Positions 3,903 to 20,267 of a DNA stretch of 64,000 nucleotides are shown here, one piece after another. The notes below the pieces were generated by a model that ran no database searches, had not been told where the DNA came from, and saw only the letters and a program-made list of their open reading frames with translations. Positions within the stretch are counted from its first letter, which is position 1, and each line of letters opens with the position of its first letter. The stretch spans positions 987,101 to 1,051,100 of the forward strand of contig NZ_CP036455.1 in assembly GCF_004323735.1 (NCBI RefSeq). Direction: 5' to 3'. The stretch is from Streptomonospora litoralis (GTDB lineage Bacteria > Actinomycetota > Actinomycetes > Streptosporangiales > Streptosporangiaceae). A program made the translations under genes and the position numbers.

Positions 3903-4756
3903 GTGTCGTCCCCCCTCGGGATGGCGGCCGGGGCGTCGGGCTCGCGGCGCAGCAGCGAGACGGCGCCCGAAACGGTCGTGGTGGTGATTCCGGCCGGATC
4001 GACCCCGCTGCCGATCTTTCCGGTGAGGGTGCCGTGGGCGCGCTGGTCGCGGCGTTCCAGGCCGAAGTCCGAATCCAGCTTGCCGGTGGCCGAGCGCAGT
4101 TCGACCGCGGCCGAGGTCTCGGCGGGCACCCGGAGTGCGATCCCACCGGAGACGGATCCCAGGCGGACGCGACCGGAGGGGGCCACGTCGACGTCGGCCA
4201 GGAACCGGCCCGAGGCGCTCTTACCGGACAGGTCCACCAGTCGCCCTCCGGCTACGGCCACCTGCCCGCTCACGGTGTTGAACCTCAGGCTGCCCTGCAG
4301 GTCGCGGGCCGAGACGGCACCCGAGACGGTGTTCACCTCGGCCTCTCCGGTGAGGCCGTCCAGCGTGACGTCGCCCGATGCCGTCCGTACCCGCGTCTTC
4401 GCGCCGAGACCCGCCACGACCACCGGCGCCGACAGCGTGGTGACCTCGACGGGGCAGTCCCGCGGGACACGCAGACTGATGGTGGCCGAGCGGCGGCCCA
4501 TGGCCCGGTAGCCGGAAAGCTGCACCGGGCGCAGCCGGTCCAGCAGGCCGCTGCCCGTGAGGTCGTCGTAGGTGATGGTCAGGATGCCGGCCTCCTGGGT
4601 GGCCAGCACGGGCTCGCCCGAGACGTCGGAGACCTCGAAGGTCACCGGGTCGTCGGTGGGCAGGATGTTCACGTGACCGCCGATAATCCGCACACGCAGC
4701 GCCACGATCCCGTCCAGTGTGCGTGTCGTCGGCTGGTCGATGGTCCAACGCGCCAT
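3899..4756 (-). CDS. DUF4097 family beta-strand repeat protein
   Basis: A 285-aa protein with repeated short motifs such as T-A-S-G-D-V, N-T-V-S-G-A-V and N-T-V-S-G-Q-V spaced about 20 residues apart. These are typical of DUF4097/DUF4098 proteins, which fold as a right-handed beta-helix-like stack. No signal peptide or membrane segment is visible, so it is likely cytoplasmic. It is first in a two-gene unit with the PadR regulator. Such pairs recur in actinomycetes, but the function is unknown. GAAAGG lies upstream of the ATG. Confidence 0.85.
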   Translation of the reverse strand: MARWTIDQPTTRTLDGIVALRVRIIGGHVNILPTDDPVTFEVSDVSGEPVLATQEAGILTITYDDLTGSGLLDRLRPVQLSGYRAMGRRSATISLRVPRDCPVEVTTLSAPVVVAGLGAKTRVRTASGDVTLDGLTGEAEVNTVSGAVSARDLQGSLRFNTVSGQVAVAGGRLVDLSGKSASGRFLADVDVAPSGRVRLGSVSGGIALRVPAETSAAVELRSATGKLDSDFGLERRDQRAHGTLTGKIGSGVDPAGITTTTVSGAVSLLRREPDAPAAIPRGDDT

Positions 4757-17971: not shown

Positions 17972-19435
17972 GTGTCTGCGGTCAGCGGCCGCAGCATGAG
18001 CGTCACCACAGACATCCCCGCCCGGCTCGACCGGTTGCCCTGGCAGCGCTGGCACTGGCTGATCCTCATCGGCCTGGGCAGCGTCTGGATCCTCGACGGC
18101 CTCGAAGTGACCATCGTCGGCGCGGTCGGCTCCCGGATCACCGAGGAGGCCAGCGGTCTGGGCATCACCGAAGGGCAGGTCGGGCTGGCGGCCTCGATCT
18201 ATGTGGTGGGGGCCTGTCTGGGCGCGCTGTACTTCGGCCACCTCACCGAGCGCTACGGCCGCCGCAAGATCTTTCTGGTGACGCTCGGCGTCTACCTCGT
18301 CGCGACCGTGCTGACCGCCTTCTCCGGCAACGCGCTGTGGTTCTACGCGTGCCGGTTCTTCACCGGGTTCGGGATCGGCGGCGAGTACGCGGCCATCAAC
18401 TCCGCAATCGACGAGATGGTGCCCGCACGCCTGCGCGGGCGGATCGCGCTGATCGTCAACGGCTCCTACTGGCTGGGCGCCGCCGCGGGCGCGGCCATGG
18501 CCTATCCGCTGCTCAAGCCGGAGGTCCTGCCGGAGTTCCTGGGCTGGCGCCTGCTCTTCGCCGTGGGCGGCGTGCTGGGCCTGATCATCCTGGTGGTGCG
18601 GCGCATCGTGCCGGAGAGCCCGCGGTGGCTGATCATCCACGGCCGTGAGGAGGAGGCCGAACGCGTGGTCCGCGGCATCGAGGAGGAGGTCGAGCGCGAG
18701 GCCAACCGCAGCGAGCTGCCCGAACCGCAGAGCACTCTGGAGTTGGAACAGCGCACCCGAACCACGTTCCGCGAACTGGCTCGCACCATCGTCGCCACCT
18801 ATCCGCGCCGCACCATCGTGGGGCTGGCGCTGTTCGCCGGGCAGGCGTTCCTGTACAACGCCATCTTCTTCACCCAGGCGCTGGTGCTGACGAACTTCTT
18901 CGGCGTCTCCTCGGGCGTGGCGCCGCTTTACCTCATCCCGCTGGCGATCGGCAACTTCCTGGGGCCGGTCCTGCTGGGTCCGCTGTTCGACACCCTCGGG
19001 CGCAAGCCGATGATCGCCGGGACCTACATCGGTTCGGGGCTGCTGCTCGTCGGTACCGGCGTGCTGTTCCAGGCGGGCGTGCTCACCGCTCTGACGGTGA
19101 CGCTGTGCTGGTGCGTGGTGTTCTTCTTCGCCTCCGCCGGAGCGAGTTCGGCCTACCTGACCGTCAGCGAGATCTTCCCGATGGAGACCCGCCCGCAGGC
19201 CATCGCGCTGTTCTACTCAGTGGGGACCGCGCTGGGCGGCATCCTCGGGCCGGGGCTGTTCGGCCAGCTTGTGGCGAGCGGGGAGCCCAGCCAGATCGCG
19301 TTCGGCTACTTCCTGGGTGCGGCTCTGATGATCACGGCCGGTGTCATCCACTGGATCATCGGTTTGGAGGTGGCCCGCAGTTCCCTGGAGAACATCGCCG
19401 ACCCGCTGAGCAAGAAGGCCATCACCTCGTCGTAG
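17972..19435 (+). CDS. MFS transporter (sugar-porter/SV2-like)
   Basis: A 487-aa permease with about 12 hydrophobic segments in two groups of six, split by a charged loop at about 220-270. Signature motifs are G-H-L-T-E-R-Y-G-R-R-K between helices 2 and 3, P-E-S-P-R-W-L before the central loop, and F-D-T-L-G-R-K-P in the second half. Substrate is unclear; sugar or organic acid transport is likely from the family. The GTG start has AGGAG 6 nt upstream; an ATG at 17996 is an alternative. No regulator or catabolic gene is adjacent. Confidence 0.88.
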   Translation: MSAVSGRSMSVTTDIPARLDRLPWQRWHWLILIGLGSVWILDGLEVTIVGAVGSRITEEASGLGITEGQVGLAASIYVVGACLGALYFGHLTERYGRRKIFLVTLGVYLVATVLTAFSGNALWFYACRFFTGFGIGGEYAAINSAIDEMVPARLRGRIALIVNGSYWLGAAAGAAMAYPLLKPEVLPEFLGWRLLFAVGGVLGLIILVVRRIVPESPRWLIIHGREEEAERVVRGIEEEVEREANRSELPEPQSTLELEQRTRTTFRELARTIVATYPRRTIVGLALFAGQAFLYNAIFFTQALVLTNFFGVSSGVAPLYLIPLAIGNFLGPVLLGPLFDTLGRKPMIAGTYIGSGLLLVGTGVLFQAGVLTALTVTLCWCVVFFFASAGASSAYLTVSEIFPMETRPQAIALFYSVGTALGGILGPGLFGQLVASGEPSQIAFGYFLGAALMITAGVIHWIIGLEVARSSLENIADPLSKKAITSS

Positions 19436-19564
19436 CCCGGGTGGCGGTGCCCGGCAGGGCAGTCCTTGGTGGGGTGACCGAAGCCGGCGACCGCGGACGA
19501 AGGCTGTGCTGAGGTTCGGTGGGGAAGGTTGCCCGAGGCCACCGGGCGGCGCAAAAGCGGAGTG

Positions 19565-19638
19565 TGGGGCCGGCGGGATTCGAACCCGCACTGTACAGGT
19601 CCTAAACCTGCTGCCTCCTGCCGTTGGGCTACGGCCCC
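19565..19638 (-). tRNA. Class-I tRNA with UAG anticodon
   Basis: The minus strand folds into a complete cloverleaf. The acceptor GGGGCCG/CGGCCCC pairs perfectly. The D stem is GCC/GGC, with an 11-nt loop containing GG. The anticodon stem GCAGG/CCTGT carries loop TTTAGGA. The variable loop is a short ACAGT, and the T arm is GCGGG TTCGAAT CCCGC. The anticodon TAG (19602-19604) would read CUA/CUN leucine codons. However, true tRNA-Leu is class II with a long variable arm, and this gene has none. The discriminator is A; the 3' CCA is not encoded. Amino-acid identity is therefore uncertain. Confidence 0.85.
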
Positions 19639-19769
19639 TCATCGGCGACATCGCGCATGCGGCGCCCGCGGGGGCGGCGGCGGAGTCGTCCGTCCGAGGG
19701 TGGCACCGGCCGGGCACGAGCGCAAGTGGCGCCTGCGCTCCCGCGCTCGCGCCCGCCGGTGCCTCGACC

Positions 19770-20267
19770 TCAGCCCAGTCCCAGTTCGCGCTTGACGCGA
19801 GCCACGTGGCCGGTGGCCTTCACGTTGTAGAAAGCCTTGGCCACAGTGCCGTCGGGGTCGATGACGAAAGTCGAGCGGATGACGCCCTGCACGACCCGTC
19901 CGTAGTTCTTCTTCTCGCCGAACGCGCCGTAGGCCCGCAGGACCTCCTTGTCCGGGTCGCTCAGCAGCGGGAAGGTGAGCCCCTCCTGTGTGCGGAACTC
20001 CGCCAGTTTCTCCGGCGAGTCGGGCGAAACTCCGAGCACCGTGACACCCGCGTCCTCGAACTCGCGCAGGTTGTCGCGGAAGTCGCAGGCTTCGGTGGTG
20101 CAGCCGGGCGTCATAGCGGCGGGGTAGAAGTACAGCACGACGCGCTTTCCGCCGGACGCGAGCACGTCGCCGAGGCGGACGTCGGAGCCGTCGGCCGCGG
20201 TGAGGGTGAACTCGGGAGCGGTGTCGCCGGGGCTCAGCCGGGTGGTCGACTCGCTGGACTCGCTCAC
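19770..20267 (-). CDS. bcp: Thioredoxin-dependent peroxiredoxin, Bcp/PrxQ type
   Basis: A 165-aa peroxiredoxin reducing peroxides in the cytoplasm. The peroxidatic cysteine is C56 in T-P-G-C-T-T-E-A-C, and the resolving C61 lies five residues on, the PrxQ/Bcp arrangement. A-P-E-F-T-L near the N-terminus and L-L-S-D-P-D are family motifs. Length is normal. It lies next to the unusual tRNA gene and is transcribed alone in the minus direction. Confidence 0.95.
   Translation of the reverse strand: MSESSESTTRLSPGDTAPEFTLTAADGSDVRLGDVLASGGKRVVLYFYPAAMTPGCTTEACDFRDNLREFEDAGVTVLGVSPDSPEKLAEFRTQEGLTFPLLSDPDKEVLRAYGAFGEKKNYGRVVQGVIRSTFVIDPDGTVAKAFYNVKATGHVARVKRELGLG

Follow-up and report, generated by a model that had tools for sequence, protein, structure and literature searches.

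The locus examined here raises the question of how a tRNA gene with the leucine anticodon UAG can have the 5-nt variable loop of a class I tRNA when reviews give tRNA-Leu as class II (PMC7609411 and PMC4033280, in their available parts), and of which amino acid such a tRNA would carry. The gene lies in a stretch of 64,000 nucleotides from the genome of Streptomonospora litoralis, which is called the window throughout. A sequence-only reading of the window had proposed that the gene is a non-canonical leucine isoacceptor, a tRNA charged with another amino acid that would mistranslate CUA, or a tRNA-like RNA with a non-decoding job. Our analysis favors the first of these, and we give a probability of roughly 0.9 to the reading that this is a genuine tRNA-Leu(UAG) isoacceptor, without the long variable arm through loss or by membership in a tRNA-Leu family that lacks it, and that it is charged by leucyl-tRNA synthetase (LeuRS) and reads CUA.

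Structure and genomic neighborhood of the tRNA gene

As had been claimed, there is a complete class I tRNA with a UAG anticodon; both ARAGORN and Rfam call it, on the minus strand, with 19564/19565 as its lower coordinate (Table 1). The RNA reads GGGGCCG-UA-GCCCAACGGCAGGAGGCA-GCAGG-UUUAGGA-CCUGU-ACAGU-GCGGG-UUCGAAU-CCCGC-CGGCCCC-A and has an acceptor/T-stem plan of 7/5, A73, G37 and no encoded CCA. The T loop (UUCGAAU) and the length of the variable loop (ACAGU) are as described earlier, while the statement that all stems pair perfectly was inexact, because the D stem combines three pairs with a mismatched C13-A22, and a G27-U43 wobble terminates the anticodon stem. The structural observation as such is correct, and mildly heretical. 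With five nucleotides the variable loop falls short of the arm of at least 10 nt that defines a class II tRNA, and the 7/5 plan differs from the 8/4 or 9/3 plan of the allo-tRNAs. The broken stems and lack of conservation expected of a tRNA pseudogene are not seen, the stems being intact and covarying over 45 distinct variants. A chance match is excluded by the Rfam score and E value together with the existence of orthologues in which the anticodon stem is compensated.

Table 1. Positions of the tRNA gene, its parts and its neighbors in the window
Feature	Position	Strand	Evidence
Class I tRNA-Leu(UAG), an isoacceptor with a short variable loop (probable)	19565..19638	-	ARAGORN; Rfam RF00005, 60.2 bits, E 1.6e-10
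Anticodon UAG in loop UUUAGGA	19602..19604	-	ARAGORN position 35; loop YUUAGGN in 45/45 distinct variants (110 loci)
5-nt variable loop ACAGU, where class II Leu tRNAs have a long arm	19590..19594	-	Sequence
bcp-like peroxiredoxin gene, same strand as the tRNA and upstream of it, frequent neighbor	19770..20267	-	Pfam AhpC-TSA, E 7e-43; 66/98 loci
MFS transporter gene, convergent neighbor, not conserved	17972..19435	+	Pfam Sugar_tr, E 1.3e-49; near the tRNA in 6/110 loci

Neither ARAGORN nor Rfam finds a second tRNA in the 64-kb window. A scan for promoters and terminators around the gene found nothing, and the lack of a sigma-70-like promoter within 19400-19900 has weak meaning in an actinomycete.

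The class I body would also suit a tRNA that carries some other amino acid than leucine, with mistranslation of CUA and part of the CUG codons. The changed-identity tRNAs of Streptomyces and Kitasatospora are reportedly of proline type, with a tRNA-Pro body adjoining a prolyl-tRNA synthetase isoform. The tRNA of the window differs from these mistranslating hybrids in that its core is of the leucine type and its flanking genes are bcp and the MFS transporter gene, with no synthetase gene. That tRNAs of changed identity exist in some bacteria has been reported (PMC10365949, in the part available) and speaks for this alternative in general; the identity elements, the codon alignments and the exchange of tRNA forms described below speak against it here.

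The leucine tRNAs of the genome

The S. litoralis assembly (5.81 Mb, 99.99% complete) contains 54 matches to RF00005, and ARAGORN also reads 54 tRNAs. Five of these are leucine tRNAs: the CAG (84 nt) and GAG (86 nt) tRNAs are class II, and the CAA, UAA and UAG tRNAs, each of 75 nt as ARAGORN prints them, are class I, so the tRNA of the window is one of a set. The check for a separate class II tRNA-Leu(UAG) that had been proposed was negative: the 54 tRNAs include no class II copy of Leu CAA, UAA or UAG, no second UAG tRNA and no other tRNA with a CUA-reading anticodon. The tRNA of the window is the sole dedicated CUA reader found among them. The premise that bacterial leucine tRNAs for CUN codons belong to class II does not hold as a general rule, with class I forms present in this and in other genomes.

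The unusual class of this tRNA could be taken to point to a tRNA-like RNA that works off the ribosome, for example as an aminoacyl donor or a regulator. This idea does not account for the reading of the 73 CUA codons among the genes predicted in a 400-kb stretch, for which no other reader was found; a non-decoding role is therefore unsupported, and, given also the conservation pattern of the anticodon arm described below, we regard it as very unlikely.

The class I tRNA-Leu(UAA), which reads UUA (G000:C1:4691338-4691412, L079), has a peculiarity of its own. It has C33, in the loop CCUAAAA, in place of the near-universal U that is found in the other 53 of the 54 tRNAs. The C33 form of this tRNA was seen in 41 of 100 relatives; the family, with 61 genomes, accounts for 39 of these, including all six of the genus, and the class I UAA tRNA of other family members has U33.

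Identity elements and leucyl-tRNA synthetase

We compared all 54 tRNAs of the genome under structural numbering. The combination of A15-U48, A22 and A73 occurs in exactly the five leucine tRNAs, and A20a-G21, taken separately, also selects exactly these five, while A14, A15-U48 and A73 alone are not leucine-specific and are also found in three tRNA-Lys genes. The LeuRS of Escherichia coli needs A73, A15-U48, G18G19 and A20a and can dispense with the long arm (PMC9976931, in the part available). The leucine elements of E. coli (A14, A15-U48, A20a, G18G19) and the discriminator A73 are all present in the tRNA of the window. Given the combination common to all five leucine tRNAs and these requirements, the class I set has the elements known to be recognized by a bacterial LeuRS. 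The tRNA is very probably charged with leucine, and the single LeuRS would recognize it through A73, the A14/A15-U48 core and A20a-G21-A22 of the D loop, elements that it has in common with the two class II leucine tRNAs and that are at odds with charging by a different amino acid.

The genome has one LeuRS, with one match to PF13603 and one frame over the cut-off of TIGR00396, and each of the five genomes searched has one LeuRS frame above the cut-off. Class I leucine tRNAs co-occur both with a shorter LeuRS (frames of 835-908 aa in G340 and in S. litoralis, G000) and with a longer one (996-1058 aa in G081, G067 and G339). A dedicated second LeuRS for the class I tRNAs was considered and rejected on these two grounds, the single frame in S. 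litoralis and the presence of class I tRNAs with shorter and longer LeuRS alike.

A second LeuRS gene was observed in a few relatives (loci L089, L090 and L092-L098). Three of them (G036, G056 and G061) have a shorter LeuRS and one of 990-1000 aa with KMGKS, G039 has a second frame of 1051 aa with no KMGKS seen, and G016 pairs a KMGKS LeuRS with a divergent one with KVSKS.

Usage and meaning of the codons

In the 400-kb stretch, CUA occurs 0.73 times per 1000 codons, UUA 0.19, UUG 3.38 and CUG 59.5 times. The meaning of the rare codons was examined in an alignment of 210 orthologue pairs with G004, a genome of the same genus (median identity 87%), in which sites were considered informative if the relative uses a codon other than CUA, UUA or UUG. 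CUA is aligned with leucine at 31 of 39 sites overall and at 20 of the 28 informative sites, so the anticodon of the tRNA matches a codon that is used as leucine; the other eight informative sites have another residue in G004, in what is a small test between members of one genus. Leucine is also the partner at 166 of 185 informative UUG sites and at all four informative UUA sites. As yardsticks, CUG is aligned with leucine at 4462 of 4774 sites, GUA with valine at 155 of 177 and AUA with isoleucine at 30 of 41. In 70 pairs with a second relative (G002), leucine was found at 7 of 8 CUA and 68 of 76 UUG sites.

In this genome it is CUA, UUA and UUG whose readers are class I tRNAs, and one could suppose that all three have been reassigned in the lineage and that the class I tRNAs serve the new meaning. 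The leucine partners just given, seen against the CUG yardstick, and the single LeuRS with identity elements common to both classes contradict this, and we find it scarcely credible. CUA most likely still means leucine, because the tRNA is the sole match for it in the genome and similar leucine tRNAs without the arm occur in many actinobacteria and phages.

The U34 of a UAG anticodon can wobble to CUG. For this reason a mischarged tRNA would strike the commonest leucine codon, and the earlier argument that the rarity of CUA lets such a tRNA persist does not hold. Since it is also the only CUA reader found, and CUA is mostly at leucine sites, we consider charging with another amino acid to be very unlikely, slightly more so than a non-decoding role. 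Mistranslation, codon reassignment and a non-decoding RNA were all rejected on the identity elements, the codon alignment and the sole-reader status. The reading as a non-canonical leucine isoacceptor gains from the same results, namely the lack of a class II UAG tRNA among the 54, the leucine identity elements and the leucine at most informative CUA sites. On the ribosome, this isoacceptor would read CUA and, through U34, probably CUG too.

Conservation in Actinomycetota

Of 100 related genomes searched by blastn, 66 had a match, and the weakest matches need not be orthologues; the best 30 loci are all class I UAG tRNAs, and the same-genus genomes G004 and G003 both hold the gene. A pattern scan of named genomes found at least 120 stretches, 80 of which were listed, among them stretches from Nocardiopsis, Thermobifida, Streptosporangium, Actinomadura, Micromonospora, Actinoplanes, Amycolatopsis, Saccharopolyspora and Lentzea, with two named Streptomyces species also among the matches listed. 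Together we used 110 loci, all selected for holding tRNA-Leu(UAG) and some from the same genomes, which represent 45 distinct variants.

The anticodon loop is YUUAGGN in all 45 variants, 80 of the 110 loci coming from a pattern that requires the YUUAGG loop and makes no demand on the stem. Each of the five anticodon-stem pairs occurs in more than one Watson-Crick type; pair 29-41 is Watson-Crick in 45 of 45 variants, with four types, and pair 27-43 is Watson-Crick in 36, G-U in 7 and unpaired in 2. A constant anticodon loop on a stem that varies with compensation is as expected of a decoding tRNA and goes against a role off the ribosome. Proximity to bcp in relatives, which the sequence-only reading had suggested looking for, was confirmed: where there is room for it (98 loci), bcp is found in 66 cases on the tRNA's strand, no more than 1.5 kb upstream.

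Exchange of class I and class II forms

Other actinobacterial genomes combine the two classes in different ways. Thermobifida fusca has a class II CAA tRNA and class I UAA and UAG tRNAs; in Streptomyces regalis the UAA (bldA type) and CAA tRNAs are class II and the UAG tRNA is class I; G081 has class II UAA and UAG with class I CAA, and G067 has class II UAG with class I CAA and UAA. These leucine inventories are partial in all four genomes, five class II places in S. regalis being unread. Every one of the five genomes read has a class II CAG tRNA, and four have a class II GAG tRNA, that of S. regalis being unread.

The coexistence of the two forms was examined with strict patterns over 246 genomes of Actinomycetota, of which 198 were used for UAA and CAA. 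For UAG, 8 genomes have the class I form and 89 the class II form, and none of the 246 has both (2.9 expected, P 0.03); for UAA the numbers are 44 and 58 with 0 of 198 having both (12.9 expected, P 2e-8), and for CAA 22 and 92 with 1 of 198 having both (10.2 expected, P 9e-6), where all P values ignore phylogeny. The sole overlap, in G330, involves a CAA match in which one pair of the anticodon stem is not formed. The strict patterns see neither form in 85 to 149 genomes per anticodon, and they miss known cases: the class II pattern misses the CAA tRNA of T. fusca and the UAG tRNAs of G067 and G081, and the class I pattern misses the UAA tRNA of S. litoralis, whose position 33 is C. In a backwards control the class I pattern gave 4 matches against 87 forwards, and the class II patterns gave none. 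Among the 61 genomes of the window's family, the class II pattern found no UAA, no UAG and four CAA tRNAs (G017, G025, G031 and G049), counts that are lower bounds because the pattern missed the class II CAA tRNA of T. fusca (G044).

By these strict patterns, it is very rare in the Actinomycetota sampled for one genome to have an anticodon in both its class I and its class II form. That the forms replace each other between genomes is as expected of interchangeable tRNAs with the same amino acid, and such substitution is hard to reconcile with mistranslation. The tRNA-Leu(UAG) of the window may have arisen by loss of the arm or by replacement of a resident tRNA. Among nearest neighbors by tRNA body, the class I CAA tRNA of S. 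litoralis has 0.75 to other class I CAA tRNAs and 0.70 to one class II CAA and one class II UAA tRNA, and the body of its UAG tRNA, outside the loop and anticodon, has 0.77 to the class II UAG tRNA of G081.

Two further observations concern individual tRNAs. The class II tRNA-Leu(UAG) of G081 (L445; G081:C1:3419799-3419881) has C13 as in class I and is possibly an intermediate form. An extra class I tRNA-Leu(CAG) is found in the relatives G008, G014, G020, G030 and G037, each of which has a class II CAG copy too.

Leucine tRNAs without the long arm in phages and plasmids

The tRNA of the window matches 199 phage records, of which 176 are from phages of Streptomyces or Mycobacterium. Using the class I leucine tRNA of a Pseudomonas phage as query gave 154 records, including 33 Escherichia and 23 Salmonella phages. 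We read 12 stretches (L448-L459), 11 from phages and one from a plasmid, in which ARAGORN identified 17 tRNA-Leu genes of 74-78 nt with the anticodons UAG, CAA, CAG, GAG, UAA or AAG; the hosts of the 11 phages are Mycobacterium, Streptomyces, Thermobifida, Pseudomonas, Escherichia, Enterococcus, Bacillus, Lactobacillus, Synechococcus and Microcystis. A73 is present in all 17, CCAA at positions 12-15 in 13 and a variable loop ending in CAGU in 10, and the phages with both CCAA and CAGU include some of Escherichia, Bacillus, Lactobacillus, Enterococcus, Streptomyces and Mycobacterium. Among the 54 tRNAs of S. litoralis, CCAA at 12-15 is found in the three class I leucine tRNAs and in no other, and the CAGU ending in two, both class I leucine tRNAs. 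The class I leucine tRNA of phage wV8 had no match in the 20,395 records of the E. coli collection; the bacterial chromosomes surveyed were those of Actinomycetota and E. coli.

Several of the stretches deserve individual mention. Mycobacterium phage BeanWater has three class I tRNA-Leu genes (CAG, GAG and CAA), and the Microcystis phage has an annotated tRNA-Leu of 87 nt beside its class I ones. Thermobifida phage P318 has a class I tRNA-Leu(UAG) (L450:297-370) at a place with no annotated feature, upstream of the terminase small subunit gene. The Bifidobacterium longum plasmid has a class I tRNA-Leu with the anticodon AAG (L453:296-372).

The sequence similarities suggest one family of leucine tRNAs without the variable arm that may be common to phages and actinobacterial chromosomes. 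A more tentative idea, which we think is probably not correct as it stands, is that this family (CCAA D arm, A20a-G21-A22, NCAGU loop, A73) would be a single mobile RNA family. It would travel in phage tRNA arrays and would, more than once in Actinomycetota, have taken the place of the resident class II tRNA that reads the minor codons UUA, UUG and CUA; the long arm, being dispensable, may be lost because host or toxin enzymes acting on class II tRNAs can take hold of it.

Significance and comparison with known systems

Genomes of Actinomycetota mix class I and class II leucine tRNAs codon by codon, with one LeuRS in each of the five genomes checked. As natural substrates without the variable arm, these tRNAs bear on how a bacterial LeuRS tells leucine tRNAs from others, including the Ser and Tyr tRNAs. 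They are also relevant to the isotype models used in annotation, to regulation through codons (UUA is read by a class II tRNA in S. regalis and by a class I tRNA in Streptomonospora and Thermobifida) and to the origin of phage tRNA arrays.

The open-access literature matches listed include none with class I tRNA-Leu of bacteria or phages as its subject, and a Streptomyces study gives one TAG gene per genome without commenting on the class of the tRNA (PMC4932002, in the part available). The tRNA-Leu(UAG) without the arm is a known kind in an under-described form. A short-loop tRNA-Leu(TAG) has been noted in a tRNA gene cluster of Mycobacterium (PMC6582537), and in M. tuberculosis a long loop is ascribed to tRNA-Leu-2, 3 and 5 by a toxin study (PMC11541572), which implies a short one for tRNA-Leu-1 and -4; in the available parts of both papers the short form is not the main subject. 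The mycobacterial tRNAs resemble ours as class I leucine tRNAs of an actinobacterium and differ in that a normal long-loop UAG tRNA is also present there (PMC6582537, in the same part), whereas the class I form is the only copy found in S. litoralis.

The closest counterpart that reads the same codon is the class II tRNA-Leu(UAG), which, by strict patterns, was never found together with the class I form in the 246 genomes. By eye, that of G067 has in common with our tRNA the anticodon, U33, G37, A14, A15-U48, A22, A73 and the T arm, and it differs in its variable arm of about 15 nt and its G13, compared with 5 nt and C13; the G081 tRNA is the exception to G13. The phage tRNAs are like the tRNA of the window in the features counted above (A73, CCAA and the CAGU ending), but have other acceptor stems, lie mostly in tRNA arrays and also have CAG, GAG and, in the plasmid, AAG anticodons. 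The human mitochondrial tRNA-Leu(UUR), which also has no long variable arm, is charged with leucine mainly through A73 and A14; it differs in being organellar, in being served by a different LeuRS and in its floppy anticodon branch (PMC9976931, in the part available).
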